Below, piece by piece: positions 5,346 through 22,622 of a DNA stretch of 22,622 bases (positions within the stretch are counted from its first letter, which is position 1; each line of letters begins with the position of its first letter). Location: IMG/VR virus record IMGVR_UViG_3300022937_003630, positions 1-22,622 of that record; one strand, given 5' to 3'. Source of the stretch: a virus. The translations under genes were made by a program, and so were the position numbers. The notes below the pieces were generated by a model. It did no database searches. It worked only from the letters and a program-made list of their open reading frames with translations, and was not told the origin of the DNA.

Positions 5346-5383
5346 AATATGTGTGATGGTTATTTATAATTGAGTGTTTGTAA
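5346..5383 (+). promoter_or_regulatory. Possible promoter before gp25-like gene
   Basis: This short gap is one of the few non-coding stretches in the baseplate region. It contains TATTTATAAT (5361-5370), which includes a perfect bacterial -10 hexamer TATAAT at 5365-5370, but there is no recognisable -35 box at the right distance. Read on the other strand, 5361-5368 is TATAAATA, the T4 late-promoter consensus, but no leftward gene follows. Only weak ribosome-binding sequence (GAG, 5372-5374) precedes the ATG at 5384. In A+T-rich DNA such matches are expected by chance, so the call is tentative. Confidence 0.3.
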
Positions 5384-5854
5384 ATGGCAACTATAAGTTT
5401 TAAATCTGTAGGAACTAAGGTATCTGAAAACAGAGCCCCTACAGCACCTGTCCCTCTACCTATTGGCATAACAACTCCAATGCAGTTGGGAGAAGGCTCT
5501 GATGGTGTGTTTAGAATGCATCGAGATCTCGGAGACCAGATAGCAGACAATCTCAGAAATCTTATATTGACAAACAATGGAGAGCGTCTTGGGCAATATG
5601 ATTTTGGTGCTGACTTAAAATCTCTTGTTTTTGATTATTCGTCTAATCCTGAGTGGGAATCCGATGCGATGTCTAATATAAAGACAGCTGTTGCCAAATT
5701 TATGCCTTTCGTGGAATTAGAATCTTTCGAGACAAGCATAGATACTAATAACGATCCACAGATTGCAACCGTAGCAATCACTGTAACTTTTAATGTTCCC
5801 ACTGCTAATATTTCAAACAAGGCAATTAGGGTCTTTTTTGAAGCAGGAGGTTAA
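5384..5854 (+). CDS. 25: Baseplate wedge protein, gp25/GPW family
   Basis: The 156-residue protein has a length close to T4 gp25 (132 residues) plus an N-terminal extension. The core motif of the family is visible at residues 61-78: ILTNNGERLG followed by QYDFGADL, corresponding to the 'LL..pGER...FG..L' signature. Later strands (ATVAITVTFNVP, near 129-140) complete the small alpha/beta fold. In contractile tails gp25 seeds wedge assembly and contacts the sheath, linking the baseplate to sheath contraction. It lies directly before the gp6-like gene, its wedge partner. The end of this gene carries the strong AGGAGG ribosome site (5845-5850) for that next gene. This is one of the firmest calls in the window. 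Confidence 0.9.
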   Translation: MATISFKSVGTKVSENRAPTAPVPLPIGITTPMQLGEGSDGVFRMHRDLGDQIADNLRNLILTNNGERLGQYDFGADLKSLVFDYSSNPEWESDAMSNIKTAVAKFMPFVELESFETSIDTNNDPQIATVAITVTFNVPTANISNKAIRVFFEAGG

Positions 5855-5857
5855 TTT

Positions 5858-7702
5858 ATGGCGCAAAACACAAAAAAGGATCTTCTGCAAGTAAAGAATA
5901 GAAGTTTCTTAAATAAGGATTTTGAGTCTTTTAGAGCAGAGCTTTTAGAGTTCGCAAGAACATATTTTCCAGATAGAATCCAAGATTTCTCAGATGCTTC
6001 GCTCGGCGGGCTTTTCTTAGATCTTGCTTCATATGTCGGTGATGTTTCTTCGTTTTATCTTGACCACCAGTTTAGAGAGCTTGATCCTGAGACTGCAGTT
6101 GAGACTGTAAACATTGAAAGGTTAGCCCGAGCAGCGGGAGTTAAGATCACAGGTGCTTCACCTGCTGTCGCACAAGTCTCCTTTACTTTAGAAGTACCTG
6201 CTGAGCAAGTAGGAAGCAAATTTAGACCTCAAGAGTCTGCTTTGCCGATTCTTCAAAAAAATACAACTGTTGTTGCAGACAACGATATTGTTTTTAACGT
6301 TGTTGACAATATAGACTTCTCTCAAAAAGATGAACTAGGGTCACTAGTTGCAACTATACAAATTCGATCTACTGATGCTAACGGAAATCCATCATCTTAT
6401 CTTGTTACAAGAGATGTGACATGCGTGTCAGGTGATAGAACTACTGAGACTTTTGAAATACCTGACACCTTTCAAGCATTTAGAACGATTACGCTTTCAA
6501 ATGCCAATGTAAGTCAAATACTTGATGTTAGGGATGCAGATGGCAACCAGTATTACGAGGTTGAATCTCTAGTTCAAGATACAGTTTATGTGGGTGTAAA
6601 TAACTTGGATGATGATAGTTTTGACGTAAGTCAAAACCTTGAAGTTCGTCCTGCACCTTATAGGTTTATTACTGATTCTTCTACGCTTACAGGTTTATCA
6701 ACAATAAGATTCGGATCAGGTAGAGGTGATACGCTTGATAGAGATATAGTTCCAGATCCTTCTGAGCTGGCACTTCCTCTTTATGGCCAAAATAACTTTA
6801 GTAGATTTTCCATTGATCCTGAGAACTTGTTAAAGACAAGAACACTTGGAATATCTCCAAAGGGCACAACAATAACAATACAATACAGATTCGGCGGTGG
6901 CCTTAGTCATAATGTAGGTGCACAAACAATTACATCCCTCGGATCTATTGGTTTGAGATTTGTAAACAGTCCGACATCTCTTGTTGAGAGAGCAGTAAGG
7001 TCTTCTATTTTTGTGACCAATAATGATCCTGCAGTAGGTGGAGAGGATGCCCCTGATATTGAGCAGATTAGAGGCTTAATAAATGCTTCAAGAAATCTCC
7101 AATCAAGAATCGTAACAAAGAAAGATCTTCTTGCAAGAGTTTATACGATGCCTGCAAACTTTGGGCGAGTATTTAGAGCGTCTGTAAGAGAGAATCCGGT
7201 AAATCCTCTTTCTTCACTGCTTTATATTATTAATCGAAATGCCTCAGGTTTTCTGCAGACGTCACCTGATGCATTAAAAAAGAATTTATCTAAGTATTTA
7301 AATGAGTTTAGGCTTATTGCAGACGCAATTGATATCTTAGATGCCCAGATAATCAATATTGGAATCGATTTTGAAATAGCAGTTGATCCAAACTTTAACA
7401 AAGAAGCAGTTCTCAAACAATGCATTGACAATCTTGCATCATACTTTAATATTGAGAATTTTCAAATTGAAGAATCAATTTTAACCTCTGATATAAATAA
7501 TTTGATTTATAATGTCACGGGTGTAACCTCAGTTACAAGTGTAAAAATAAGAAATATTATTGGTACAGTAGGAGAAAGGACTTATTCAAGTAATGCCTAT
7601 AATGTTGAAGCTAACATTAGAAAGGGCATATTGTTTCCACCGCCAGGCGGAATATTTGAATTGAAGTTTCCTAACTTGGATATTCGAGGAACAGTAAGCT
7701 AG
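5858..7702 (+). CDS. 6: Baseplate wedge protein, gp6 / baseplate J-like
   Basis: This 614-residue protein follows gp25 with a perfect AGGAGG site seven bases before the ATG. The N-terminal part (KDLLQVKNRSFLNKDFESFR, then YFPDRIQDFSDASLGGLFLD and YVGDVSSFYLDHQFRE, residues 7-75) matches the start of gp6/J proteins: an entry helix, the 'F..S..G..llD..sYv.d...fY.d....E' pattern, and then 'ETAVETVNIERLARAAGVKI' (80-99). The C-terminal third (residues about 400-560) contains the conserved wedge core, with KKDLLARVYTMPANFGRVF and a strand-helix segment around IDILDAQIINIGIDFEIAV. T4 gp6 is 660 residues, so the length fits. The protein dimerises to form the inner ring of the baseplate and holds the gp7-like protein encoded two genes downstream. 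Confidence 0.85.
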   Translation: MAQNTKKDLLQVKNRSFLNKDFESFRAELLEFARTYFPDRIQDFSDASLGGLFLDLASYVGDVSSFYLDHQFRELDPETAVETVNIERLARAAGVKITGASPAVAQVSFTLEVPAEQVGSKFRPQESALPILQKNTTVVADNDIVFNVVDNIDFSQKDELGSLVATIQIRSTDANGNPSSYLVTRDVTCVSGDRTTETFEIPDTFQAFRTITLSNANVSQILDVRDADGNQYYEVESLVQDTVYVGVNNLDDDSFDVSQNLEVRPAPYRFITDSSTLTGLSTIRFGSGRGDTLDRDIVPDPSELALPLYGQNNFSRFSIDPENLLKTRTLGISPKGTTITIQYRFGGGLSHNVGAQTITSLGSIGLRFVNSPTSLVERAVRSSIFVTNNDPAVGGEDAPDIEQIRGLINASRNLQSRIVTKKDLLARVYTMPANFGRVFRASVRENPVNPLSSLLYIINRNASGFLQTSPDALKKNLSKYLNEFRLIADAIDILDAQIINIGIDFEIAVDPNFNKEAVLKQCIDNLASYFNIENFQIEESILTSDINNLIYNVTGVTSVTSVKIRNIIGTVGERTYSSNAYNVEANIRKGILFPPPGGIFELKFPNLDIRGTVS

Positions 7703-7711
7703 GAATAAAAA

Positions 7712-9250
7712 ATGTATAGAATTCTGTCAGCATCAAAAGATTGCTATATTACAAACAAGATTATAAACAATTCTTTTAGAGCTACAGATGCAAATGTAGG
7801 TCAAGCAGGAACTCTCGATATTTTTAAGCTTTACGATGAAAGCAAAATATCAGGAGAAGATAAGCCTATTGAATTATCAAGAGCACTTATTAAATTCGAT
7901 TTAGATCCACTAAGAGAACTAACAGGTAGCATACTTGATATCACTAGTGATTCTTTTAAGTGCAATCTAAAACTTTTTGATGTTGCCGGTGGACAAACAC
8001 TTCCATCTAACTTTAAGATTATTGTCCACCCACTTTCAAGATCTTTTGACGAAGGGGTCGGAAGAGACGTTACTAGATTTCAAGATATCGATGCTGCTAA
8101 TTTTGTTACTGCGTCAATATCTGGTGATTCACCAAACGTCTGGAGCATTGAAGGTGCCAATAGAGAAGGCTTGTTAAATGCTGATGATATTGACATAATC
8201 GGCTCAGGAAACTTGGATGATGGATTAGGCGTTTCTTTTCTCTATAGTGAGCAGCTATTTGAAGATGGCACAGAAGATCTCAATGTTGACATTACAAGAG
8301 TAATATCTGGTACGCTAGCAGGACTTATACCGGACTATGGACTCAGAATAGCATTTTCAGGAACACAAGAAACTGATAATAAAACTAGATTTGTTAAAAG
8401 ATTCGCATCCAGAGATAGTTTGGATACAGCAATTCGTCCTAGGCTTGAAATAAAATTTAGAGACGATATTCAAGATCATCATGAAGCCTTCTTCTTTAAT
8501 CTATCTGGATCTTTGTTCTTAAATCATTTTTCAAGAGGTATCCCTTCGAATCTCGTATCAGGGTCAAGCTTGATTGGAATATCAGGTTCTGATTGCATGA
8601 GTGTCATGATAAAGACAGGATCTTTTGAGAAAGAACTTTCTGCATCTCAGCATTCATATGGGGCTTCACTATTTGCTTCAGGTGTATATTCAGCTAGCTT
8701 TGCGATTGATTCATTTAACACAACTGTTGTAACAGCTTCTAATACGATCGCCGATTTTGTCCGGGATAGCGGATCAATTAATTTTGATGTGTTCTGGAGA
8801 TCTAACGATAAGACTTACACATTCCACACTGGAAGCGTAGAAGTAAACAAACCTGAAACAACAGGTTTTGAAAATACTCCAAAAAGACTGATTGTGAGCA
8901 TTCAAAACGCTCGAAGCGCATACAAAAAGGGTGAAAAAGTTAGAATTAGATTTGTTGCCTTTGATGATGATGAAGTTGTGCCATCTTCAAAAGTACCTTA
9001 TGTAAGAAAAAGCCTTATCTTTACTCAGTGTTATTATAGAATTAGAGATGAGTATTCAAATACTGTCATAATTCCATTTGATACAACTGATAAGTCAACG
9101 CTTCTTTCAACTGATTCTAACGGAATGTACTTTGATCTTTACACGAACGATTTTCCCGTTGGAAGAGTTTTCTCAATTGATGTTTTGGTTAAAGACCTAG
9201 GGTCGGATCAAGTTTTCAAAAGAGTAGGTGGAACATTTAGGATTGAGTAA
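7712..9250 (+). CDS. Structural protein with DNRLRE-like N-terminal domain
   Basis: This is a 512-residue protein with an AGGA ribosome site at 7702-7705. The N-terminal part begins RILSASKDCYIT, then a variable stretch and SRALIKFDL (near residues 57-65). This is the pattern of DNRLRE-type beta-sandwich domains (hydrophobic start, 'D.yI', later 'r.lIkFDl'), which act as stalk or carbohydrate-contact modules in secreted and virion proteins. The rest is beta-rich and dense in Ser, Gly and Asp (for example GSGNLDDGLGVSFLYSEQLF, TGSFEKELSASQHSYGASLF). No catalytic motif or signal peptide is visible. It ends in TAATG with the gp7-like gene. Its position between gp6-like and gp7-like genes suggests a baseplate-bound accessory or fibre-attachment protein. 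The DNRLRE assignment is by pattern only. Confidence 0.65.
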   Translation: MYRILSASKDCYITNKIINNSFRATDANVGQAGTLDIFKLYDESKISGEDKPIELSRALIKFDLDPLRELTGSILDITSDSFKCNLKLFDVAGGQTLPSNFKIIVHPLSRSFDEGVGRDVTRFQDIDAANFVTASISGDSPNVWSIEGANREGLLNADDIDIIGSGNLDDGLGVSFLYSEQLFEDGTEDLNVDITRVISGTLAGLIPDYGLRIAFSGTQETDNKTRFVKRFASRDSLDTAIRPRLEIKFRDDIQDHHEAFFFNLSGSLFLNHFSRGIPSNLVSGSSLIGISGSDCMSVMIKTGSFEKELSASQHSYGASLFASGVYSASFAIDSFNTTVVTASNTIADFVRDSGSINFDVFWRSNDKTYTFHTGSVEVNKPETTGFENTPKRLIVSIQNARSAYKKGEKVRIRFVAFDDDEVVPSSKVPYVRKSLIFTQCYYRIRDEYSNTVIIPFDTTDKSTLLSTDSNGMYFDLYTNDFPVGRVFSIDVLVKDLGSDQVFKRVGGTFRIE

Positions 9251-12200
9251 TGACTAATAAGTCCCGACTACAGAACTTGCGTCCAGGAGTATTTTCTTCT
9301 GCAATTAGAAGAGAGAATGTGGATGGATCTAAGAGTCTAATCAACAAAACAAGTGAAGATTTAAGCAAGTTGTCAGTTGCTTCCGGTGACTACTTTCTAT
9401 ATGACAGTCCTGAAACAGGAATAAGAAACACGCAACAACTACCTGTAGATTTTTCAAAATTTGAAAATCATACCTTTTTTAACTCTGCGCAAGCAAATGT
9501 TAATGTTGCTTTTGACAATATTATCAATAAGTTTCCTTTTGATGGTACTCGACTTGAGTATGAAAACTATCTAAATGGACTTACAGGTTTTGAAAACTAC
9601 GTCCTCACACAGTTTCCCAAAAATATGGGATACCTGATTTTCTCAGGATCTTCAGGTGTTTCTGAAGAAGAAGGTACGTATATCAAGGTTTTTGATTTTA
9701 AGGGAAGTCAATTTACAGACTTCTCAAAAGACAAAACAGGTGTGTCTGTTTTAAATCCTGAGACGAATAGCTTTTCTCTTGAGTGTGTTTTAAACTTACC
9801 TTCAATCGTAAATGAAAATCAGGTCATCTTCCAAAAGATTTCTGGTTCTAATATGGGCTTTACTCTAGCAGTATCGCAGTCTAGCTCTACATCTAATGCA
9901 GATCTTCTTTTTGCAATGTCTTCCGGAAGTGTAAAGATGTTTACAAGCGCTTCTGTTGACAAAGATAGATTTAATCATATTGTTGCATCCTACGATAGAT
10001 CGACAACTCAAAATAATCTAAAGCTATACATCAATGAAAATTTAGTTGCCAGCTCTTCAGGTCAAGCAGCTCTCAAAACGATTGAATTTGATAGTACACC
10101 ATTCTTGATTGGGTCTGGATCATCGCACGAGCTTGTAGGTATGAGCGGAGATACAAACTTTATCCCCAGTGAAACGTATTCAGGATCTTTGGATGAAGTA
10201 AGATTTTATCATAGTTTAAGATCTGATTTAGATCAAAAGAAATTTGCAAATAGAAATGTTTTTCCAACGTCTGACTTGAAGCTATACTTCAAATTTAATG
10301 AACCCTCTGCAAGCTTTGGTAACAATGCATTGGTTTTGGATAGTAGCGGTAACTCATTACACTCTTTGGTTTCAAATTATGTTACTTCCATGAGAGAGAC
10401 CGGAAGTTTAGGGATTTCTTTAACCCAAGAAGATAGTGAACTAAATCCCGTTCTTTTTCCTAAATTTGAAGGTGTCCAAAATTTAAATACAGATCTTCTC
10501 ACGTCAGCCAGTACTTATGATGAAAGCAATCCAAACTTAATTACGAAGCTGGTACCTCCTCATTATTTTGATGAAGGCTTTAGCACGTTTGGATTTAGAG
10601 AATTTGATCAACCTATAAATTCACCATACTCAGGAAGCAATCTACCCGGTTCAGGTGAACTAGGATCGTCACAAATACTGTCAGCAATTTTATATGTTTG
10701 GGCAAAGCACTTTGATCAAATTAAGGCGACAACTGATCATATGTCCCAGGTAACTCACGTCGGATATGACGATGGTGAGAGTGCAGCAGATCAATTTCTT
10801 CCTTTCGTGTCGAGATACTTTGGATTTGAACTACCTCCCATTTTTACAAATGGTTCCCCTGAGCAATTTTATCACCATCAAGACTTGAGCGTTGACTATT
10901 CAAACAATCCTGCATCTTTGATGAAGATAAGAAACAATATTCTTAGGAGAATATTGACCAACATTGGAGAGACGATAAGGTCTAAAGGTACAGTTCATAG
11001 TGTTAAAACAATTTTAAGATCATTTGGTCTAGATCCTGATTTATATGTGAGAATCAAAGAGTTTGGTGGTCCAAAATCTTTCTCACTTTCAGACCTAAGA
11101 TATGATAGAGCTGTTATAAGCTCTGAATTAAGTTTCTCAGGATCATTTACTACGCCTGGATCAACAAATGCGCAGGGGATTTACGATAATCTACCTCGTC
11201 TTCAAGGCGGATATTTAACTGGATCCAGGATTGAAGTAGGTGTACCTGAAGCAGCAGGAACTTTTGTAGAAAAAGGAAGTTCACATGAGTCAAAAGGATT
11301 CGGTCTTCACGGAATATCAGATGACCCAAATGATGGACTTTTTACGTCTGGATCATGGACTTATGAAGCAACTTATAGATTTCCGAATAGATTGACAAAT
11401 AATCTAAGCTCATCATTTTCGTATCCTGTGACTCAAAGTTTGGCTCGCCTACATGTTACTGGCTCCGGAGCTTTGGCACCATATGAAGGTGTCGTAGCAA
11501 ATATGCTTCTAATGTCAGGATCAGAAGAAAACAAAGACGGGCATGTTAAACTTTGGGTTAGAAATAACACAGCAGGACCAAGTATTGCTACATTACCTTC
11601 ATTAAAGCTGGTTATACCTTTTGTCTCAGTTAGCAATGGTGAAACGTGGAACTTTTCATTTGGTAGAGAAAGAGCTGAATCTCCTGTTGTTTCTTCTTCA
11701 TACTTCTTAAGATGCGCAAGACAGTCAAATGGAAGAATAGAACAAATTTTCTCAACATCTTCTTTTTATATGGAAGATGCTAATGCAAACTTTGCAAATA
11801 ATGTTTTCCAAAATAAAAGCGATACTTTAAACGCCTCAGGTTCTTATGTTGTAATTGGACCTCAAGTTATTGGAACACACAAAGATTTCTTTTTGAATAA
11901 CAGCAATGAGGATGATCAAGCTAGAGCAACTGATTTTGCAGGAAGCGTTTCAAATGTCAAGTTTTGGTCTAAAGCGCTAAAGATTGAAGAATGGAAAGAA
12001 CACGTTAGAAATCCAAGCTCTTTAGGTGTTCAAGATCCTGAACTGAATTTTAACTTTGTCACGCAAGAATCAGGATCATTTGAAAGACTAAGAATGGATC
12101 TAACTTGCGATCAGCCTATAACATCTTCAAATTCTACAGGCGTTATCAAAATAATCGATTTCTCTCAAAATGAAACATCAGGTTCAACAACAGGATTTGA

Positions 12201-12930
12201 AAGCTCTGTTGACGTATTTGAAAATGAGAAGAGATTTATTAGCACAGTTTCTCCTAATTTTGATGAGAATTTAAATAGTGTCAAGGTTAGACCAAGAAGC
12301 TTTAAGAGCTCTGATAACAGAGATGAATACAGCGCTTTGCCTGCACCTTTATTTGAGATTCCTCGAGATGAAGAACCTCAAGATGATCCAAGATTTTCTC
12401 TAGAGTTTTCGATAGCAGATGCCCTCAATGAAGATATCTCTAAGATATTTGCAAATCTTGACGCGATCGATGATGCAATTGGAAATGCAAATCTTCAATT
12501 TGAAGAAGATTATCCAGATCTCGAATCTCTCAGAGATGTCTATTTCAATAGACTGACAAAGAAGATAAATATTAAAGAGTTTTTTGAGTTCTACAAGTGG
12601 TTTGATACATCAATTGGAGTTTTGATTGAACAAACTATGCCAAAGAAGGCAAATTTCTTAGGTGTAAACTTTGTTGTCGAACCTCACGCTCTTGAGAGAG
12701 GAAAGCTTAGACGTCATAATGGAAACTATTATACTTCTGACTATCAAAAGCCAGGAGATGTGACGCTAGGAGGGCTCCGAGGAGCAGGATCAAATCAAAA
12801 TAGAAACGAGTTTCCAGAAGGTAATTCTCCTGATGCACCTGTTCAGCCTACGCCTAATGCTTTTGATACACAAATTTGTGATTCATATAACGGTGGTTAC
12901 GGCGGAACAGGATTGAATTGGTCGAGGTAG
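9250..12930 (+). CDS. Large baseplate wedge protein, gp7/gpI-like, with two LamG-like domains
   Basis: This 1226-residue protein starts at a TAATG junction after AGGA (9238-9241). Residues about 170-325 form a LamG/concanavalin-like fold: SFSLECVLNLP, RFNHIVASYD, NNLKLYINENLVASS, PFLIGSG, SGSLDEVRFYHSLRS. A second copy covers about 700-920 (GSWTYEATYRFPNR ... KLWVRNN ... GSVSNVKFWSKALKIEEW). Between them, residues 470-605 carry a gpI-like core: ILSAILYVWAKHFDQIKATT and RRILTNIGETIRSKGTVHSV, then KTILRSFGLDPD. In contractile systems this family (T4 gp7, 1032 residues; P2 gpI; Afp12) binds the gp6 dimer. A conserved-looking C-terminal block (FFEFYKWFDTSIGVLIEQTM, then FLGVNFVVEPHALERG) follows. 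The gp7 role is inferred from this core and from order after gp25 and gp6; the LamG folds may bind glycans. Confidence 0.7.
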   Translation: MTNKSRLQNLRPGVFSSAIRRENVDGSKSLINKTSEDLSKLSVASGDYFLYDSPETGIRNTQQLPVDFSKFENHTFFNSAQANVNVAFDNIINKFPFDGTRLEYENYLNGLTGFENYVLTQFPKNMGYLIFSGSSGVSEEEGTYIKVFDFKGSQFTDFSKDKTGVSVLNPETNSFSLECVLNLPSIVNENQVIFQKISGSNMGFTLAVSQSSSTSNADLLFAMSSGSVKMFTSASVDKDRFNHIVASYDRSTTQNNLKLYINENLVASSSGQAALKTIEFDSTPFLIGSGSSHELVGMSGDTNFIPSETYSGSLDEVRFYHSLRSDLDQKKFANRNVFPTSDLKLYFKFNEPSASFGNNALVLDSSGNSLHSLVSNYVTSMRETGSLGISLTQEDSELNPVLFPKFEGVQNLNTDLLTSASTYDESNPNLITKLVPPHYFDEGFSTFGFREFDQPINSPYSGSNLPGSGELGSSQILSAILYVWAKHFDQIKATTDHMSQVTHVGYDDGESAADQFLPFVSRYFGFELPPIFTNGSPEQFYHHQDLSVDYSNNPASLMKIRNNILRRILTNIGETIRSKGTVHSVKTILRSFGLDPDLYVRIKEFGGPKSFSLSDLRYDRAVISSELSFSGSFTTPGSTNAQGIYDNLPRLQGGYLTGSRIEVGVPEAAGTFVEKGSSHESKGFGLHGISDDPNDGLFTSGSWTYEATYRFPNRLTNNLSSSFSYPVTQSLARLHVTGSGALAPYEGVVANMLLMSGSEENKDGHVKLWVRNNTAGPSIATLPSLKLVIPFVSVSNGETWNFSFGRERAESPVVSSSYFLRCARQSNGRIEQIFSTSSFYMEDANANFANNVFQNKSDTLNASGSYVVIGPQVIGTHKDFFLNNSNEDDQARATDFAGSVSNVKFWSKALKIEEWKEHVRNPSSLGVQDPELNFNFVTQESGSFERLRMDLTCDQPITSSNSTGVIKIIDFSQNETSGSTTGFESSVDVFENEKRFISTVSPNFDENLNSVKVRPRSFKSSDNRDEYSALPAPLFEIPRDEEPQDDPRFSLEFSIADALNEDISKIFANLDAIDDAIGNANLQFEEDYPDLESLRDVYFNRLTKKINIKEFFEFYKWFDTSIGVLIEQTMPKKANFLGVNFVVEPHALERGKLRRHNGNYYTSDYQKPGDVTLGGLRGAGSNQNRNEFPEGNSPDAPVQPTPNAFDTQICDSYNGGYGGTGLNWSR

Positions 12931-12936
12931 ATTTCT

Positions 12937-13902
12937 ATGTCTTTTAATCCCAAAGTAAATTTTGAATACAGAGCTGAATTTAAAGACAAGCAAGGAGTAT
13001 CAAAAATTGATGCTTCTACAAAGAAAGCAACTCCTCCAGACTTAGACAAGAGAAGAGAAAAACCTGACAGTAAATACGACCCACATTCACCTGATTACGT
13101 CAGAGAGACTGCTAAGACAAAAGACCAAGTAAACTGTGTTGCAAAGTTTACACAAGGTGTCAGCGGCAAAAACAAAACTCCATCTGGAAATAGAGTTCTT
13201 CCTTTGATGGGAACAGGCTTAAATGATAATGCGGTAGCTGTTTTAAATTTTGGACAACCCCAGGAATTTAAGTCAAATGAATCATTTGAAGATATCGCAT
13301 CTTTTTCAAAGTCTGAGATAAGACCTGATAACACTGCAGACACAGCAGCTATAGACTTCATAGAATCAGGAGATGATCAGACATACGCTCTAAACCTGAT
13401 CAATAATGCGCATGATGATCCTTCGCAATTTAACGGCGTTATAGAAGGAATGACGATTAGAGATGTTTTATCGCATGTGTCTACTGAAAGTCCTTTTATA
13501 GCTAGATCTACAAAAGGCGCAGTTATGGATGGAAATATTGATTCTCATGGAAGATCTTCTAGCGTACAAAATCTATACCCGCTTACATCTTCTTCCGGAG
13601 TTGATGTATTTTTGGACGGGGGAGAGAGAATAGGTGACATTTTAGTTCCAACTGCTGTCTGGGAACAAGAGAAAAATGTTGCACCATTTGATGAAACTCA
13701 AAACAATAGAAATGACGTAAATGCTCAAATGCTATTGCTGAGTGCTTCATCTGATATGCTCGATGCGCTGAGTGCCTTAAATCCACAGACTGAACAGTAC
13801 CCTCCCGCAGGTTTTAAATCTTCGAGAACAGGGTTTATATTTACTAATGGTGCGTTTGGTGTCGATTCAATCGCATTTGGAAATCTGAAAAACGATGCCT
13901 AA
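12937..13902 (+). CDS. Virion structural protein, unrecognised
   Basis: This 321-residue protein has a GAGG ribosome site at about 12922-12925, inside the end of the upstream gene. The N-terminal 60 residues are very charged (KDKQGVSKIDASTKKATPPD, LDKRREKPDSKYDPHSPDY) and look disordered. The middle (residues about 95-190) is acidic and includes ESGDDQTYALNLINNAHDDP, and the C-terminal part ends in short hydrophobic strands (TGFIFTNGAFGVDSIAFGNL). No membrane segment, signal peptide or enzyme motif is seen. The gene lies between the gp7-like protein and a 919-residue protein and overlaps the latter by eight bases (ATGCCTAA), so it is probably a tail or baseplate connector made with them. I do not recognise the family. 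Confidence 0.6.
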   Translation: MSFNPKVNFEYRAEFKDKQGVSKIDASTKKATPPDLDKRREKPDSKYDPHSPDYVRETAKTKDQVNCVAKFTQGVSGKNKTPSGNRVLPLMGTGLNDNAVAVLNFGQPQEFKSNESFEDIASFSKSEIRPDNTADTAAIDFIESGDDQTYALNLINNAHDDPSQFNGVIEGMTIRDVLSHVSTESPFIARSTKGAVMDGNIDSHGRSSSVQNLYPLTSSSGVDVFLDGGERIGDILVPTAVWEQEKNVAPFDETQNNRNDVNAQMLLLSASSDMLDALSALNPQTEQYPPAGFKSSRTGFIFTNGAFGVDSIAFGNLKNDA

Positions 13903-16654
13903 AAGAACAAAAGATAGAGAAGGAAATACGCTGACGATATCAGGGATCACATCTCTATCGCCCAGAGTTTATATTCGAAATGTTGATAATGCGACAGGTT
14001 CTTATCCTACTATTGCTAGAACAGGGGATTCAAGAACAGGAGTATATTCTGGATCATTTGATGATACTACATCAATTCTTGTAGGGGCATCTGACAATCT
14101 TATCTTGGGTAGGCAGATATTTTCCTCAAGTCAATACATTGATAGATTTGTTGCAACACCAAGTACGAATCCTACACTTGTAGGGCCAGGAACAGCTTCT
14201 TTTGGTATCGCAGATCAAAGAGTCACCTTCACGCCCGGGCAAGATCTTCTTCCTTTTTCTGAGCACAATCTCTTTGAAAATGATCCAAGCTCTGCAACAG
14301 ATCCTTTTTATCTAACAGGAAGCCGGGTTGAGGATGTCGGTTTGGGATTCTCAAATCCACTTAAATCTAAGACAAAAATTGAGATCGACTTAACAACTAA
14401 CGAAACTTCCCTAATCTCAGTTGATGGAGGCGCATCCGCTGGGACATTTCACCATCACATGGGATATTATAATAAGAGCGAAAAGAAATTTGACTTAATA
14501 GGCTCAGGAGTTTTTCCACAAACCGATACAGCCCAAAGATCTCTCGATTCTCTCAATATTGGATTTGGAGTTTCTACTGATGTAGGTGGTGTAACACCAG
14601 CAGATACAATTAAGCGTACTAGGCTATCCGGCGCACCCATATCAAATTTTGGATTTCCAATCCATCCGAAATATCATGCTACTTCTTCTCAGCTAACACA
14701 AATGTCTGAGTATATTAATGCACCTTTTGTTGTCGAAAAAGCAGTTTTAACTTTTTCTGGAACTTTTCAAAATGCTGAAACAGGTGGTGGAACTGCTGAC
14801 TCACCAATGTCTACGTTCTTTATCTTAAATCAAAGATCACCCTTCAATGTTGAACAGACATATACATCTGTCGAAGGTGATACAGGTTATCCCCAGTTCG
14901 GTATCTTGACTTCTTCAATCCCGTCTCTTGCAGTTTTAAATGAGTCTGGAGAAGGTGTGTATGTTGATTCAGGAAGAGATCTGGTTACATATATGCAAGC
15001 GGTTTCTGTAAACCCAGGAATATCAGGAGAACTAAAGCAGGCAACTTTGAGAGAATTGAATGTAATAGATGTTTCTGGGACAGGAAAGTTAGCTCCGGGT
15101 GAATATGTGATGTCAGGGACTGTAAAGTCTCCTGTTGTTCAAACATCTCAGGCAGTTCTAAAATTAACTGTAAATGGGAATATGGTCTTAACATCTTATG
15201 AAAACGGTGGTCGAAATGCTTTAGGTTTGCCTACAGGGCGAGATCTAACAACTTCTGTTTATGGTGAGAACGTATCGGGATCATACCAGGTAGAAAATAC
15301 GAAGACAGCATTCGTTGCTGACTTGGTTGAGCCAGAATTTGTGTCAGTTAACAACCCATACGTTTTACGTCCTGAAGACAATTTGATCTTTGGGTGGCAG
15401 CTGTCAGTGCCCTATTCGGTAGGAGGATCATCTACTCTTGAGATAGCGCCCTATAACGGCAAGCTTACACTTTACGGATCTCTAATCAGAGAGGGCAGAG
15501 AATTCCACCAGGGAACAAACCAGCTTTTAACTTCTGACAGCATCCATGAAGATGTAAGAGATAATACTACATTAACAAACACGTCAGACTGCTTAGATCA
15601 ATTTTTATCTGAGTATACATCTCAATATAGCGGATCTTATATAGATCAAGTATTTGATGAAGACTTAGGGGTCGGAACTTCTCGTATCGATGTCAAACCC
15701 AATAGTGTCATTTCCGGGCAAGCAGGAACAACAGGATCCATATTGCGAGGAATTCACTTGATCGACTCAGGTGAGAGATTCTTTGATTCTTTAGTTCCAG
15801 ATATACAGACTATTTTTTCAATTGATGGGGCTTCTATAATATCAGACCCGCTCGGATCTGGTAAGGCAGCGCTAGGCATAGGAACCCAACCTGTTGATGT
15901 CACTGATGCAACATCAAAAAATGATAAATGGTTTTTTGCCTTTCCGTTTGAAAACAGGTATGATAATGTTGCCAGAACCCCTGTCGGAATTGAAAAGATC
16001 AGTGGTGGCCCCCTTGATTCACTTTCAGCGGGAGTTGTTTTCACAGGCTTTGCACCAGACGGTGGCGCAGGATTCTGGACTGATGAAAACCTTGGCTTTG
16101 GAAATGAAACTTTCAAGCAGAGAAATAAGATTATCTTCGGAATTGGAGCAGGCCCATCTGGATCTGTCGAGCCTTCTCTTATCGACAATGCTACAATCCC
16201 ATCACCAGACGCAGAGTTTGCTTCCCCTCCGATTCTAAGAGGATTTAAGTATGGATTGATTAACGCAGTTCCTCAATTCACAAAGGCAATTTTTAGATAT
16301 GATCGATTTGGTCAGTTTAGAGATATGTTGGAGCAAAGGCTTTTTGCTAAGTTCCAGTCTGCTGGAGATCAATCAAGAGAAGTTGTCTCAATTGTCTTCT
16401 CAAAAGTTCTCAATGTGGGAGATGGAAATCTCGTAAGAAGGCAATTCACACCTGAAGATGCATCAGGACACTTAAATATCGACCAGCACGCTAGAGTCAC
16501 GAAACCTTTCTTTGATGTAGAGCCTTCTGGTATCACGCAAAATACTAATGTTGATTCACTGCAAGTTGCTAATATCAATTCTTTAGCAGGAGGCGCGGAC
16601 ATAGACCCTAAAAATCTTGGTCTGAATGATTTCTCTTCTTTCGTAAAAGGTTAA
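13895..16654 (+). CDS. Large virion structural protein, unrecognised
   Basis: This is a 919-residue protein starting inside the last codons of the previous gene (ATGCCTAA overlap); the ribosome site is weak (GGAAA), so coupled translation is likely. The composition is rich in Ser, Thr, Gly and Asp, with many short beta strands and no long helices. Examples are RTGDSRTGVYSGSFDDTTSI near the N-terminus and TGKLAPGEYVMSGTVKSPVV in the middle. A few regions look more conserved: NPYVLRPEDNLIFGWQLSVP (near 487-506), then FRYDRFGQFRDMLEQRLFAK (about 800-820), which could be a packing helix. The 'LIFGWQLSVP' strand is a type I recall from large marine phage baseplate proteins, but I have no function for it. 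It is probably a peripheral baseplate or tail-fibre network protein. A gap of 44 bases follows. Confidence 0.6.
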   Translation: MPKRTKDREGNTLTISGITSLSPRVYIRNVDNATGSYPTIARTGDSRTGVYSGSFDDTTSILVGASDNLILGRQIFSSSQYIDRFVATPSTNPTLVGPGTASFGIADQRVTFTPGQDLLPFSEHNLFENDPSSATDPFYLTGSRVEDVGLGFSNPLKSKTKIEIDLTTNETSLISVDGGASAGTFHHHMGYYNKSEKKFDLIGSGVFPQTDTAQRSLDSLNIGFGVSTDVGGVTPADTIKRTRLSGAPISNFGFPIHPKYHATSSQLTQMSEYINAPFVVEKAVLTFSGTFQNAETGGGTADSPMSTFFILNQRSPFNVEQTYTSVEGDTGYPQFGILTSSIPSLAVLNESGEGVYVDSGRDLVTYMQAVSVNPGISGELKQATLRELNVIDVSGTGKLAPGEYVMSGTVKSPVVQTSQAVLKLTVNGNMVLTSYENGGRNALGLPTGRDLTTSVYGENVSGSYQVENTKTAFVADLVEPEFVSVNNPYVLRPEDNLIFGWQLSVPYSVGGSSTLEIAPYNGKLTLYGSLIREGREFHQGTNQLLTSDSIHEDVRDNTTLTNTSDCLDQFLSEYTSQYSGSYIDQVFDEDLGVGTSRIDVKPNSVISGQAGTTGSILRGIHLIDSGERFFDSLVPDIQTIFSIDGASIISDPLGSGKAALGIGTQPVDVTDATSKNDKWFFAFPFENRYDNVARTPVGIEKISGGPLDSLSAGVVFTGFAPDGGAGFWTDENLGFGNETFKQRNKIIFGIGAGPSGSVEPSLIDNATIPSPDAEFASPPILRGFKYGLINAVPQFTKAIFRYDRFGQFRDMLEQRLFAKFQSAGDQSREVVSIVFSKVLNVGDGNLVRRQFTPEDASGHLNIDQHARVTKPFFDVEPSGITQNTNVDSLQVANINSLAGGADIDPKNLGLNDFSSFVKG

Positions 16655-16698
16655 GCAGTAAATCGATAAGTATTTACATATGATCTGCGGAGAGCAAC
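16655..16698 (+). promoter_or_regulatory. Gap with small inverted repeat and possible promoter element
   Basis: This gap precedes the 1109-residue fibre gene. It holds an inverted repeat, GTAAAT (16658-16663) and ATTTAC (16672-16677), around an eight-base loop, and a TATTTACATAT stretch (16671-16681) that resembles TATTTATAAT in the gap before gp25. A short out-of-frame ATG (16680-16682) opens only eight codons. The ribosome site GGAG (16689-16692) lies six bases before the TTG start at 16699, which decides that start. Promoter activity is a guess. Confidence 0.3.
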
Positions 16699-19600
16699 TT
16701 GTCTAATTTTACAAACCTGTTTGTCAATCAGAAGACAGGAAAGATAGAAACAATAGGCGCAACCAAGATCACTGCTCTTGACGTGAGAGCAGGCTCCGCT
16801 CGTGTCGGTGCCGCAGAGATGCCAGGTGCAGACACAAACTTCTTTGTGTCAGGGTCAGTTGAGTCAAAAGCCGCTGGTTCTTTCGGTGTATCAGTTTTCG
16901 GCGGCGATGTTGTAATCTCAGGTTCTCTTTACGGCGGTTCTCCTCTCGAAGTAAGAACGCCTCTCGAAGGATACCAGGGTCTATCTGGATCACTAACTCA
17001 ACTAACTGATGGCAGATCTTATCTTGTCGAGGGAAATCAGGTTCAGATCACAAGCCAGTCAAATGGCCAGATTATTATAGGTGGAACATTTGGTGACCCT
17101 GTTATTGTTTCCATCACTCAAACTAACGATATCACTACGCTTGGAGCTGACGCTGGAACAGGAAATGAAAGAGTTCTTTTTAGTACAGCAGAACCAGGTA
17201 CTACCCCCACCCTAAATACCAATGTTCCCGAATCAGGAATATCTTTCGCGTCTTCAGCAGGAACATTTACAGTTGACAATGCAGGAACATATTTCATAGC
17301 AGTTGCATTCTCTGCAAAAGTTTCTGCAACAACCCAGTATGACGTTAGAATAAAAGTTAATGGTGTAACAAAACATACAAAGAGAAATGGAACAGAGACA
17401 TCAGGAGATCCTGACGAATCAACTTCAATGGTGATTCTAGATCTGTCAGCGAGTGACATCGTCACAGTCACATATGAAGATGATGGAACAGCTGATATCT
17501 TTCCGAATACAGGGACATCGATTTCCATTTTTCGAGCCGGCCCAGGAGGAAATAACTCAGGTTGGACCGACGATGGTGCTGTAGTTAGACTGACAACTTC
17601 TTCTGACAAAGTAGGAATAGGTGATAGCGATCCGACTGCGTTCGGAAGTGATGTGTACCTCTACGTGTCAGGATCATCTCGAAATGACACAACAGGTGTG
17701 ACTGTCTTTGGCGGTGATGTTGTTATCTCCGGCACACTGCACGGTGGATCTCCTCTAAAGATTGCAACAGAAGGTATCAAGCTTGGAGATCAAAGGATTC
17801 ACCAGACTGAGCCTGGAAAAATTACTTTGGGTGAAAATGTCCACTTTGACTCAGAAAGTCTTCACTTTGGTGATCATAAAATTAAAGATGAGGGCGGATT
17901 TTTAAAGTTCGATAGTAACAATTTCAAGATTGGAGATCACGAATTTTCCCATGATGCAGGAGTGCTTCACTTTGGAAATCAGGATCAAGACACTAAAATA
18001 GGTGATATCAGAGTAAGAAAGAATACTTTATCTACTTTTTCTGAGATGCCGCTTATTCTCGGTGCTGATACACACGATTTTGTCATTATTGAGAACAAAT
18101 TAGTAGTTACAGGATCTACTTGTATTATTGGTGATATCGATGTCGAAGGCTGTCTTAGAAGTTTACACAACTCGATCACAGGATCTCTCCAGAAAGTGAT
18201 GGACGGATCTTCATATCTTGCTGCAGGCACAGGCATCAATATCGTAACCCAATCAAACGGACAGATCGTCATCTCCACATCAGGGACAGGACTCGGAACA
18301 ATTGGTGAATCAGAGGATGCCGACTATTCTGACGGCTTGTTCACAGATTTCAATACTTCAACCCCTATTGGCACCGCTGTTGATAGATTTAACGAAGTGC
18401 TTAAGTCATTAGCACCTGGTCCCGCACCTTCACTTTCTCAGATTAATGCAACTCAGTCTGGTGCTAGTTCAAAACTTTCTTTTGGTGCTACAAGTGAGAT
18501 TGTTGGTTATACTAATGTTAAAGGTGTGGGTGATTTCACACCAGGTGATATTAATTCTCCATTTTTAAATGCAATATTTGGATCTGATGTTAGACTTGGT
18601 GCTATTAACGCCAGCACAAACATAAGCGGGAAAGTAAACGATCATGTGGCAGCAGACTCAGTTAATTATCCCGCTGATTGTTTTGGAGATGCAAATACCG
18701 GCGAGCTGATATTAGAAATCAATGGAGTAGAGCAGCTATCCATTGATCTAGCTGTACCATCGTCTGATAAGCCAGAAACGTCTTTCGGCACGTATCTATC
18801 AGCTTCAGCTCCGTTTTCAGCACACTTTGAGGACGGATCTGAGCTAGACGTCTTTAAGCATAGGCTTGGCACCTTCCTTATTCACTCTGGTGATATGTCA
18901 CCTGGTCACAACTACGCTAGAGTTATACATAGAAAAACTTCTGCTGATGTGGTGACAAACTATATTGATTGGGTGGTCGATGACTATGTCACTCCAATTG
19001 CTGCATCAAACTCGCTGATTCAAAATCTTAACATGACAGGTGATAAAAAGATATCAGGTGTGTCATATCACACAGGTGGTACAGCAGACTATAGCTTGAC
19101 AGTTGACAATGCTTACAAAAATGTCTATTCTAATTCAATCTCAGCGATTACTTTCACTGGATTAAACTGTGCTGCCTCTTATGTCTCTCCTGCTACGGGA
19201 GAACTACCTGAAATCAACGTATCGACGGGTGAGAATGAGACAAAATCTCTTTCTATTAGCGCACTCTTAAATGTTAATGCTTCCAAACTATTAGATGGTT
19301 CAATTACGGCATCGACAAATGTCCTTCATCCGATAAGCGAGAAGTCATTGACGCTTGGTGGAACTAAGTCTGTTTCAAACTTATTAGTTTATAATCTATC
19401 TGATACTGCTACAGACACTTTTGAACCTCTAAGAGGAGAAGATTATCGATTACCTGTCAAAGCTTATGACGGACAATCTGATGTTGATACTCCTTGGGAT
19501 TCAAATGAGTCACTACTTTTAAATGATGGGCTTCTTGTCTATGATGAGAAGTTGGTATCCCCAATAAATGGCGTGAACGGAGGAAACTTTTCTTCTGTTG

Positions 19601-20028
19601 CAAATGGGCCTGTAAGCAACGTAGACTATTCAGGAATAGCGTCAGGCGCAAGAACTTACTATAGAAAGTTTAAAAATAATGCAGGCGGCTCCAAGACTAA
19701 TTTTACTCTAACATTTGCAGGTACGGGTCAAGTTGTTCCAGTTGGGACATCGTTAGCAAGTACAAACAAGTTCACAGTCGCTGTTAAACTACCTCAAAAT
19801 TCAGAAAATCAATCAACCGGATGGATGGATCTGGCTCTTCCTTTCTCTACGGGAGAAGTTGGAGACGGTGATGGATGTCTGGTGGGTACGCTAGGAAGTA
19901 TGGGTCAAGCAACTGAGGGAACTTTTGGAACGCAGTTCTTAAGCGCAAATGATTATTTAGTTATGAAGATCGAGGCAGATGCATCTTGGACAGGAAACAT
20001 TAGTTCGATCACTTTAAATTGGGTATAA
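16699..20028 (+). CDS. Modular tail fibre / adhesin protein with C1q-like domain
   Basis: This 1109-residue protein is read from a TTG with GGAG six bases upstream; no in-frame ATG lies nearby. Modules in order: a VFGGDVVISGSLYGGSPL unit (residues 66-83); an SGSL-type unit (LSGSLTQLTDGRSYLVEGNQ, 95-114, ending SNGQIIIGG); a C1q/TNF-like jelly roll (about 143-280, with AGTYFIAVAFSAKVS and SGTSISIFR-like strands); a second VFGGDVVISGTLHGGSPL (336-353); a histidine-rich beta-repeat (about 360-440); and a second SGSL unit (492-526). The C-terminal half is a long beta-rich shaft, ending in FGTQFLSANDYLVMKIEADA then WTGNISSITLNW, a tip domain I recall from other phage fibres. It probably forms trimeric fibres on the baseplate. 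Next to it lies another fibre gene sharing the SGSL module. Confidence 0.78.
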   Translation: MSNFTNLFVNQKTGKIETIGATKITALDVRAGSARVGAAEMPGADTNFFVSGSVESKAAGSFGVSVFGGDVVISGSLYGGSPLEVRTPLEGYQGLSGSLTQLTDGRSYLVEGNQVQITSQSNGQIIIGGTFGDPVIVSITQTNDITTLGADAGTGNERVLFSTAEPGTTPTLNTNVPESGISFASSAGTFTVDNAGTYFIAVAFSAKVSATTQYDVRIKVNGVTKHTKRNGTETSGDPDESTSMVILDLSASDIVTVTYEDDGTADIFPNTGTSISIFRAGPGGNNSGWTDDGAVVRLTTSSDKVGIGDSDPTAFGSDVYLYVSGSSRNDTTGVTVFGGDVVISGTLHGGSPLKIATEGIKLGDQRIHQTEPGKITLGENVHFDSESLHFGDHKIKDEGGFLKFDSNNFKIGDHEFSHDAGVLHFGNQDQDTKIGDIRVRKNTLSTFSEMPLILGADTHDFVIIENKLVVTGSTCIIGDIDVEGCLRSLHNSITGSLQKVMDGSSYLAAGTGINIVTQSNGQIVISTSGTGLGTIGESEDADYSDGLFTDFNTSTPIGTAVDRFNEVLKSLAPGPAPSLSQINATQSGASSKLSFGATSEIVGYTNVKGVGDFTPGDINSPFLNAIFGSDVRLGAINASTNISGKVNDHVAADSVNYPADCFGDANTGELILEINGVEQLSIDLAVPSSDKPETSFGTYLSASAPFSAHFEDGSELDVFKHRLGTFLIHSGDMSPGHNYARVIHRKTSADVVTNYIDWVVDDYVTPIAASNSLIQNLNMTGDKKISGVSYHTGGTADYSLTVDNAYKNVYSNSISAITFTGLNCAASYVSPATGELPEINVSTGENETKSLSISALLNVNASKLLDGSITASTNVLHPISEKSLTLGGTKSVSNLLVYNLSDTATDTFEPLRGEDYRLPVKAYDGQSDVDTPWDSNESLLLNDGLLVYDEKLVSPINGVNGGNFSSVANGPVSNVDYSGIASGARTYYRKFKNNAGGSKTNFTLTFAGTGQVVPVGTSLASTNKFTVAVKLPQNSENQSTGWMDLALPFSTGEVGDGDGCLVGTLGSMGQATEGTFGTQFLSANDYLVMKIEADASWTGNISSITLNWV
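16879..17085 (+). repeat. First copy of VFGGD and SGSL fibre modules
   Basis: Within the 1109-residue protein, residues 66-83 and 94-129 encode two short modules that recur in this window. The VFGGDVVISG.L.GGSPL unit recurs at 17704-17757. The GSL...DG..YL..G..I.I...SNGQ.. unit recurs at 18172-18276 and, in the next fibre frame, around 20840-20950. The amino-acid similarity is clear by eye, while the DNA has diverged, so these look like old shared modules and not a recent duplication. Confidence 0.75.
17704..17757 (+). repeat. Second copy of VFGGD fibre module
   Basis: Residues 336-353 of the 1109-residue protein read VFGGDVVISGTLHGGSPL, against VFGGDVVISGSLYGGSPL at residues 66-83: 16 of 18 positions are identical. 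Synonymous differences are frequent, so selection acts on the protein. Confidence 0.8.
18172..18276 (+). repeat. Second copy of SGSL fibre module
   Basis: Residues 492-526 of the 1109-residue protein carry SITGSLQKVMDGSSYLAAGT and then INIVTQSNGQIVIS, matching the module at 94-129 of the same protein and the one in the following fibre frame. The spacing GSL-DG-SYL-G-(I/V)x(I/V)-SNGQ is preserved. Confidence 0.75.
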
Positions 20029-20029
20029 G

Positions 20030-20701
20030 ATGGCTTTTGTAAGCGCAACTGAGAGAGACTTAGCTCTTAAGAAAATAGTTGGTAAGGCGCACACATCGCC
20101 TGACAAAGAGATTGCCAATGAAGCACTGTCTAGCGGTCTTACTATATCTGCTCAGACTGTATTTGGAGAACAGGTACCAAGCACACCATCAAAGACGTCT
20201 TTTTATACGATCACTGGAGGTGTTGCTGAGTACGTAAGATTACCTGTCACATTTATACCAGGAACAGATACAGATCAAGGTAGGCATAGTTTCTCTGTTA
20301 GACTTCCTGACGACTATGTTGCAAATAGCTCAAATCCAAAAGCAGGAACAGGATTCTTCGTAAACGGGCAGGAGATATATGAGACCCTAGGTGGAATTCA
20401 ACTTATTCCCACCACGTTCGGATCAGACTACGAAGCTATCCCTCATTACGGTGATATCTCAGCTCTTGAGAGAGTATATCCGCTAGATGAGAGAGACTGG
20501 TCGCTTGATTATTTTAATGGGGTTTTCTTTCAACAAGACCCACCTGGGACAGGAGCTCATGCCCAAAATCCCACTTACATTGATGCTTTTATCTACATCG
20601 GCGATACTCTTGATACAGTTATTGGAGGCTTGTCTGGCGGCGGCGGAGGAGTTTCCGACGGTAGTTTTATCACTATCGAGTCCGAATCAGGAATGTCCTA
20701 A
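20030..20701 (+). CDS. Fibre protein N-terminal (attachment) part, ends at in-frame TAA
   Basis: This 223-residue open frame begins two bases after the stop of the large fibre gene, with only a poor ribosome site. It has a compact N-terminal domain (ATERDLALKKIVGKAHTSPD), a beta-rich middle (YVRLPVTFIPGTDTDQGRHS) and a striking block near residues 135-195 (GIQLIPTTFGSDYEAIPHYG, ERDWSLDYFNGVFFQQDPPG) that I recall as well conserved in marine phage fibres. A glycine hinge (GGLSGGGGG) follows, and then FITIESESGMS. The frame ends at TAA (20699-20701), but the same frame continues after it without another stop for 347 more residues that read as fibre shaft and tip. The product is therefore either a short attachment protein or the first part of a 571-residue fibre. 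Confidence 0.7.
   Translation: MAFVSATERDLALKKIVGKAHTSPDKEIANEALSSGLTISAQTVFGEQVPSTPSKTSFYTITGGVAEYVRLPVTFIPGTDTDQGRHSFSVRLPDDYVANSSNPKAGTGFFVNGQEIYETLGGIQLIPTTFGSDYEAIPHYGDISALERVYPLDERDWSLDYFNGVFFQQDPPGTGAHAQNPTYIDAFIYIGDTLDTVIGGLSGGGGGVSDGSFITIESESGMS
20699..20701 (+). other. In-frame TAA stop inside a fibre reading frame
   Basis: The codons read TCC TAA GAA AGA AAG CTG ACC. The protein sequence on both sides is fibre-like (ESESGMS, then ERKLTIGTGLSGVDGG), and the frame is unchanged across the stop. TAA ends many other genes in this window, so it is not globally reassigned. A substitution, a sequencing error or readthrough would each explain it. Confidence 0.75.
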
Positions 20702-20842
20702 GAAAGAAAGCTGACCATCGGAACAGGTCTGTCAGGAGTAGATGGCGGAGAAAACTCAACTTATGAGATCTCAGTTGACTCGACTGTTGTCCCGCTTCTT
20801 GCAGGCGCCTCTTTTACAGGTGATGTCTCGTTTAACCAGGGA

Positions 20843-21745
20843 TTGTCTGGATCTTTGCAAACCTTGAAAGATGGTAGACCATATCTTGTCGCGGGAAATA
20901 ACATCCAGATTCAATCTGGATCATCTGGCCAAGTAACGATATCAAGTACAGCTACTGGAGGAAATACTGGCTTCACGTCCCTGATATTAGGTGCTGACAC
21001 TCTTGAGGCTTCCGTGTCTGAAGATATCACGTTTGTGGCTGGTAGTGGAATGCAGATATCTGCTGACACCTCGACCAATACAATGACGTTTGAGGTGTCA
21101 GGAAGCACAGTTACTGAGATAATAAAGGTTGGCAATACAACTGAGGAAGTCTTAACAGATAATTCACCAGAAACCCTTTTACCCTTCATTCTAACAGGCA
21201 CTCCAGTTCCAGCAAGCTCTCTTGCTATTTTTATAAATGGAATTAGACTTTCATCTGGCGTGGATTTTACTTACGATGCCGCAATAAAGTCGGTGACAAT
21301 ACCTTCCGACTACAACATAGGAAGTAGAATTATCGCAACTTACAATGAATCTGTTAGCGGTGTTGTTGCAGAGGATGATCCACGCCTCACTGATGATAGA
21401 ACCACCGGAGGAATAAGGACCCAGACAACAATCGTGTCTGTGTCAGGATCTACGGCACCCACTGAGGGACAAGTTCTCATTGCTGAAAGTGATACACAAG
21501 CTTCTTGGGGCGACTTTATGATCTTTAATGAAGTACCCACAGGCATCAAAGATGATGCAAACCAGGACTTCTCTCTCAGCCAGGCACCTTTGAGTGAAAA
21601 TGATATGATGATCTTTGTAAATGGGCTCTTGCAAAAAAATGGAACAAGTTATGATGTGGCCCTCTCGGGAAATACACTGACCTTTGCTGTGCCACCAAAC
21701 GAGTCTGACATGATTTCGGCAACTTATCGACCAAATTATTCTTAA
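20843..21745 (+). CDS. Fibre protein C-terminal (shaft and tip) part, in phase with upstream frame
   Basis: The frame is open from 20702; the first conventional start codon in it is a TTG at 20843, giving 300 residues. That TTG lies in the middle of an SGSL module (GLSGSLQTLKDGRPYLVAGN), directly after AGGGA with no spacing, so it is a poor start. The 47 residues before it (ERKLTIGTGLSGVDGG... then GASFTGDVSFNQG) are also fibre-like, so this is the tail of the upstream frame. After the SGSL unit come two similar tip domains: LAIFINGIRLSSGVDFTY with RIIATYNE, and MMIFVNGLLQKNGTSYDV with MISATYRPNYS. These domains are typical of phage fibre tips. If translated at all, it is most simply explained as a 571-residue fibre separated by the TAA. 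Confidence 0.6.
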   Translation: MSGSLQTLKDGRPYLVAGNNIQIQSGSSGQVTISSTATGGNTGFTSLILGADTLEASVSEDITFVAGSGMQISADTSTNTMTFEVSGSTVTEIIKVGNTTEEVLTDNSPETLLPFILTGTPVPASSLAIFINGIRLSSGVDFTYDAAIKSVTIPSDYNIGSRIIATYNESVSGVVAEDDPRLTDDRTTGGIRTQTTIVSVSGSTAPTEGQVLIAESDTQASWGDFMIFNEVPTGIKDDANQDFSLSQAPLSENDMMIFVNGLLQKNGTSYDVALSGNTLTFAVPPNESDMISATYRPNYS

Positions 21746-21817
21746 AAAAATATTCCTGCCCTCATACTTAATTTTGACTTATTCGCGTTCTTGAAAATTT
21801 CAAACTGAGGAAACTTA
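21746..21817 (+). promoter_or_regulatory. Gap before DUF5659-like gene, weak promoter-like sequence
   Basis: This 72-base gap has TTGACT at 21774-21779, close to a bacterial -35 box, and TACTTA at 21765-21770, similar to the TATTTA elements of the other gaps. No good -10 hexamer follows at the usual spacing. A GAGGA ribosome site lies just before the ATG at 21818. No hairpin followed by a T-tract was found, so I do not call a terminator. Confidence 0.25.
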
Positions 21818-22036
21818 ATGTCATCTAAAATTTATAAGACAAACGATCTTATTCTTGCGTCCTACTTGAAGCACAAAGGGCTTGCTCTTGATTCTTATCA
21901 AAAAGATGCTAAAGGACGTGTGACATTTCAATTTAACGTTTCAGACGAGGACATTGAGAAACTCGTCGTACAATATCTGAACTCTGAGGAGAGAGCATTC
22001 TATGATGAACTAAAAGCTCTAAAGCGGCTCACGTGA
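21818..22036 (+). CDS. DUF5659-like small protein
   Basis: This 72-residue protein has a clear GAGGA ribosome site. The pattern KTNDLILASYLKHKGLAL (residues 7-24), then a strand with VTFQFNVSDED and LVVQYLNSEERAFYDELKAL, matches the DUF5659 family as I recall it ('tnDL.LAaYL..kG', a basic strand, then a helix with 'v..Yln'). Members are small proteins found in phages and bacteria with no assigned function; a nucleic-acid role has been guessed from size but is not shown. The TGA stop lies inside a perfect 12-base palindrome (22027-22038). It stands alone between the fibre frame and the structured leader of the next gene. Confidence 0.65.
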   Translation: MSSKIYKTNDLILASYLKHKGLALDSYQKDAKGRVTFQFNVSDEDIEKLVVQYLNSEERAFYDELKALKRLT

Positions 22037-22038
22037 GC
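22027..22038. repeat. Perfect 12-base palindrome GCTCACGTGAGC
   Basis: GCTCACGTGAGC reads the same on both strands and includes the stop codon (TGA, 22034-22036) of the DUF5659-like gene. It might be a protein-binding site or part of the adjacent RNA structure; no function is known. Confidence 0.6.
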
Positions 22039-22247
22039 TCAAGCCCTCGGCAGCCGCTAAAAATGCCGGGGCAAAAATAGAAATGCACATATAAAACAGA
22101 TATAAAAATACAAATTCAGATCCCTATGCACATGAATATGAACATGCAGACCGCTAAAAGTGTCTGTTGGGCGGTGTAGCACTTTGCCACACACGTCAGG
22201 ACCGATGCGGCTATTAACGCCATATTTTACAATTTAGGAGAATAATA
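22037..22247 (+). other. Structured non-coding leader with twin hairpins
   Basis: These 211 bases have no gene. Hairpin 1 pairs GCCC(T)CGGCA (22043-22052) with TGCCGGGGC (22064-22072): nine pairs with a bulged T and a loop GCCGCTAAAAA. Hairpin 2 pairs CAGAC (22147-22151) with GTCTG (22062+100 to 22066+100, that is 22162-22166), with a loop CGCTAAAAGT. The two share the stretch CAG(A)CCGCTAAAA(G)TG. AGCCGCT (22052-22058) is fully complementary to AGCGGCT at 22023-22029, and ACCGC (22150-22154) to GCGGT (22171-22175), so each loop has a partner outside its stem. A third hairpin spans 22174-22192. Between them is A+T-rich sequence with TAAAAATA (22103-22110), one mismatch from the T4 late promoter TATAAATA. 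It could be a terminator, a processed 5' leader or a regulatory RNA. Confidence 0.5.
22103..22110 (+). promoter_or_regulatory. Possible T4-type late promoter
   Basis: TAAAAATA matches the T4 late-promoter consensus TATAAATA at seven of eight positions and lies about 140 bases before a gene that looks highly expressed. The surroundings are A+T-rich, so the chance of a random match is substantial. Confidence 0.3.
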
Positions 22248-22622
22248 ATGGCAACAAAGAAAATTAGTTTCGCAGCAGGTCACGTGAATAAGGTTGCAGC
22301 AGCGAACCGCTCTAGCCAAACACGTGTTGATGCAGCACAGATGTTCGTTCGCCTCGCTAGCGGCGACTTCATCGATCTGTACGACGCTCTTGAGCAGCTG
22401 AACGATGATCTCGCTTCTGAGGCAGTCGACCGCGCAGCAGGTGATGCAGCACTTCAAGTCAACATCGACGCTGAAGAAGTAGCACGTATTGCAGGCGACT
22501 CCTCTCTTGAGACACGTCTTGGAAGTGAAGAAGCCGCACGCGCAGCAGCTGACAGCTCCATCGACGTAGTCATGGCAGCTATCCAAGCAGACGTTGACGC
22601 TAACGAAGCAGCATCTGACGCA
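22248..22622 (+). CDS. Coiled-coil repeat structural protein, 3' end outside window
   Basis: The ATG at 22248 follows a strong TAGGAG site (22235-22240), and the frame is open to the window edge: 125 residues are visible. After a short start (MATKKISFAAGHVNKVAAAN) the sequence becomes an Ala/Asp/Glu-rich helical repeat: EAVDRAAGDAALQVNIDAEE, then SEEAARAAADSSIDVV and AAIQADVDANEAASDA. Such repeats form long parallel coiled coils in phage fibres and other extended virion proteins. All seven arginines I counted use CGT or CGC, and 22261-22622 is about 54% G+C (196 of 362 by my count), unlike the A+T-rich, AGA-using genes before it. Together with the strong ribosome site this suggests very high expression, or acquisition from another source. 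The rest of the protein is not visible. Confidence 0.8.
   Translation, partial: MATKKISFAAGHVNKVAAANRSSQTRVDAAQMFVRLASGDFIDLYDALEQLNDDLASEAVDRAAGDAALQVNIDAEEVARIAGDSSLETRLGSEEAARAAADSSIDVVMAAIQADVDANEAASDA

Follow-up and report, generated by a model that had tools for sequence, protein, structure and literature searches.

In laboratory phage lambda the side-tail-fibre gene, stf, is broken by a frameshift (PMC10721106). For programmed readthrough of a stop codon in a phage tail fibre, no precedent is evident in the titles and abstracts of three papers that contain the terms, and one of these uses the word readthrough for the established -1 frameshift of tail genes. The locus described here is a fibre reading frame split by an in-phase TAA, found in a viral stretch of 22,622 nucleotides (the window, meaning all of the DNA that was analysed). 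If the change is real, the locus would resemble lambda stf in that a fibre gene is broken by a small mutation, but it would differ in being a nonsense mutation and not a frameshift, in an unrelated gene and outside a laboratory-adapted strain. The fibre genes of IMGVR_UViG_3300007276_000526, 3300044268_006045 and 3300044233_006019 have the same full-length architecture as the window (69-76% protein identity), but they are uninterrupted and carry lysine at the site. Closer still is a contig with the same gene order, IMGVR_UViG_3300017962_004826 (the twin), which has a lysine codon where the window has TAA and a single ORF of 571 amino acids. Comparison of these sequences makes it very probable (about 95%) that the TAA is a single-base change confined to one assembly, with a consensus error favoured over a recent nonsense mutation that truncates the fibre.

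Table 1. Coordinates of the interrupted fibre gene and of the stretch shared with the twin contig (positions in the window)
Feature	Position	Strand	Description
Stretch common to the window and IMGVR_UViG_3300017962_004826	4620..22622		18,003 bases, one mismatch
Fibre gene, first part	20030..20701	+	ATG start; conserved N-terminal domain, glycine-rich linker and start of xS(N/K)ER module; TAA end
In-frame TAA	20699..20701	+	AAA (lysine) in the 99.994% identical twin; AAG/AAA in L002/L003
Fibre gene, second part	20702..21745	+	SGSL modules and tip; open up to the normal TAA at 21743-21745

The interrupted frame is as the sequence-only reading described it, with 223 codons from the ATG to the first TAA and a further 347 codons open in the same frame up to the second (Table 1). 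This downstream openness is no chance event, since 20,000 base shuffles of this stretch gave not one that stays open. In relatives, one uninterrupted ORF aligns over the full extent of both parts; about 50 phage loci have N-termini homologous to the first part, and the second has 69-71% identity to the matching stretch of the intact ORFs in the relatives L002 and L003. A recurring module spans the stop; its sequence is LSNERVL, LPNERVF, LSAERVL or LNAERVM in relatives, and MSKERKL in the nearest of them. The motif LxNERxLT, which the sequence-only reading gave for related fibres at this point, is thus roughly right.

The gene probably encodes a tail fibre, judging from its position, its SGSL modular repeats, its conserved N-terminal domain and the weak matches of its tip, which are to tail-fibre and virion-structural families in PHROGs. 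Pfam and PHROGs give no match for the N-terminal part, whose predicted fold is a moderate model (mean pLDDT 67.5) with no significant match in PDB; the model of the C-terminal part is unusable (mean pLDDT 36). Across relatives the conserved N-terminal domain is joined to very different tips. The N-terminal part presumably attaches to the virion, and the distal part would be the receptor-binding end. Baseplate wedge proteins are encoded at 5384-7702 of the window, and the tail region also has several large structural ORFs. The ORF at 9250-12930 contains a laminin-G/concanavalin-like domain (PF13385, E 1.1e-14) and has no PHROG match. The SGSL-module gene at 16699-20028, directly upstream of the fibre gene, has weak BclA_C/C1q-like matches and likewise no match in PHROGs.

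Further downstream, the segment 22037-22250, between a small ORF (21818-22036) and the ORF starting at 22248, has 86-88% identity to two relatives compared with about 75% in the fibre region. A stem-loop is predicted at its start (GCCCTCGGCA...TGCCGGGGC; folding z -1.56) with no Rfam match, and the segment may have a regulatory role or encode a small RNA. The ORF at 22248-22622 runs out of the end of the window and encodes a repetitive, alanine-rich, AARAAADSS-like sequence that by eye resembles a coiled coil. In L002, too, a repetitive ORF of similar kind comes after the fibre gene.

The twin (L001/L034; 18,159 bases) was located by a search with the first part of the fibre against the IMG/VR viral collection. 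Base-by-base comparison shows that the overlap with the window is free of gaps and that 18,002 of the 18,003 bases agree, the sole mismatch being position 20699, where the window has T and the twin has A. The 223 N-terminal residues are 100% identical in the two contigs, and the ORF of the twin continues uninterrupted through the site. When the viral collection was scanned by pattern, twice, for further copies of the same phage spanning the stop position, only the twin was found. The stop is private to the window contig among the sequences compared. It is very unlikely that the twin is the erroneous copy, because other relatives also carry lysine.

The same residue is found in the next relatives, a comparison that the sequence-only reading had proposed as a check: the codon is AAG in L002 and AAA in L003 and in L004, the last two being identical in the fibre gene. 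The ORFs of these three relatives are uninterrupted (572, 575 and 575 amino acids), and their proteins are about 70-75% identical to that of the window along the full length of the gene. A wider set was obtained by a profile search with 16 N-termini, which gave 51 loci and, after deduplication, 35 complete ORFs including the twin. These vary in length between 277 and 1057 amino acids, and none of the 35 ends near residue 223, the shortest being the one of 277; separation of homologues into two genes, which had been named as a refuting observation, is thus not seen among them. One more relative, of 333 amino acids, comes from a bacterial MAG. This sequence, L089 (NHDW01000006.1), is the only relative in the bacterial/archaeal genome collection and lies on a contig of 305,838 bases in the MAG Methylococcaceae bacterium TMED69; the contig is possibly a large phage binned with the Methylococcaceae MAG. 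The annotated phage collection contains only two distant and unannotated matches with 26-28% identity.

The constraint on the two parts was compared using pN/pS by Nei-Gojobori style proportions, for the window against L002 and L003 and with L002 against L003 as a stop-free comparison. Before the stop the ratio is 0.19-0.20 for the window against the two relatives and 0.13 between the relatives. After the stop it is 0.29-0.31 for the window and 0.29 between the relatives. The distal part has evolved as protein in the window lineage just as it has in the relatives, with no sign of decay, and the interruption is therefore either very recent or not real.

On the preferred reading the locus would be one ordinary tail-fibre gene of 571 codons, in which a single base at 20699 converts a lysine codon to TAA in the window contig. 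That one chance change yields a stop is unremarkable, because 4.2% of all single-base changes in the fibre coding stretch create a stop and the window was singled out for having one. For the consensus of a low-coverage metagenome, an error rate of one in 18 kb is ordinary. The contigs share their remaining 18,002 bases and show no other sign of population variation between them, and for this reason the balance tips towards error. A base-calling or consensus error of the metagenome assembly is accordingly judged the probable origin of the change, and a nonsense mutation that arose recently in the lineage of the sampled phage a possible but less probable one. The sequence-only reading had listed stop-codon readthrough, loss of the fibre by mutation, population-level variation and assembly error; its suggestion that mutation or error is the simpler explanation is supported by the twin, which differs at this base only and has lysine at the codon.

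Taken alone, a genuine nonsense mutation that is fixed or at high frequency in the sampled phage, leaving the fibre without its distal part, is a tentative explanation. The base at 20699 is unambiguous in the contig, fibre-loss mutants such as the frameshift-broken stf of laboratory lambda are known (PMC10721106), and the neighbouring long gene at 16699-20028, with similar SGSL-type modules, is intact. Against this, every other base of the overlap matches an intact twin, so that nothing else points to real variation between these contigs; relatives show clear purifying selection on the distal part, and none of them has a truncated form. If the change is real, the product would have 223 amino acids, with the conserved N-terminal domain and the linker but without the SGSL repeats and the tip, and the virion would be without the distal part of this fibre.

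Programmed readthrough of the stop codon, giving a short form of 223 and a long form of 571 amino acids, is highly improbable. It requires a downstream frame that is open and conserved, and the frame behind the stop is both (347 codons, pN/pS about 0.3), but this is likewise expected of a recently interrupted gene, and the intact twin and relatives, which have no stop to read through, explain the downstream conservation without it. The stop itself is not conserved at the site, where the twin and L002, L003 and L004 carry lysine codons and none of the 35 distinct complete relatives has a stop nearby. TAA followed by G is usually an efficient stop. In pseudoknot-free folding, the RNA that follows the stop does not outperform shuffled sequences (z 0.29 for 99 bases and 0.74 for 149 bases), and the window has no tRNA gene that could act as a suppressor. 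Rfam gives no matches. Reassignment of TAA to an amino acid is rejected, because TAA is the terminator of the fibre frame itself and of 11 among the other 14 genes tabulated for the window, an observation that also counts against readthrough. The sequence-only reading had regarded readthrough as less simple than mutation or error, and readthrough finds no support. A mixed case is extremely improbable: a real TAA that readthrough or suppression in the host overcomes in part, with short as well as full fibres in this lineage and full ones only in the twin.

It is scarcely credible that the two parts are separate genes, the second being translated by reinitiation beyond the stop. In-frame TTG, GTG and ATG codons are present from 20843 onward, but the nearest start lies 141 bases beyond the stop inside a conserved module, and in no relative is the gene split here. 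This nearest start is the TTG at 20843, with CCAGGGA directly against it, and the spacing for a ribosome site is unsuitable, in agreement with the earlier view that there is no good downstream start. The chance that a diversity-generating retroelement made the change from A to T at 20699 by targeted adenine variation is negligible: the change does sit at an adenine of a fibre gene, but only one among many neighbouring adenines differs from the twin, and the window contains no variable and template repeat pair with a nearby reverse transcriptase, as no template-like repeat of the fibre stretch is present and family searches gave no reverse transcriptase for those window ORFs that they covered.

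A single base in a single metagenome contig can mimic recoding, and a near-identical contig in the same virus collection settles such a case quickly. Should the mutation be real, the locus would exemplify the natural loss of the distal end of one of a phage's fibres, an event of a known kind.
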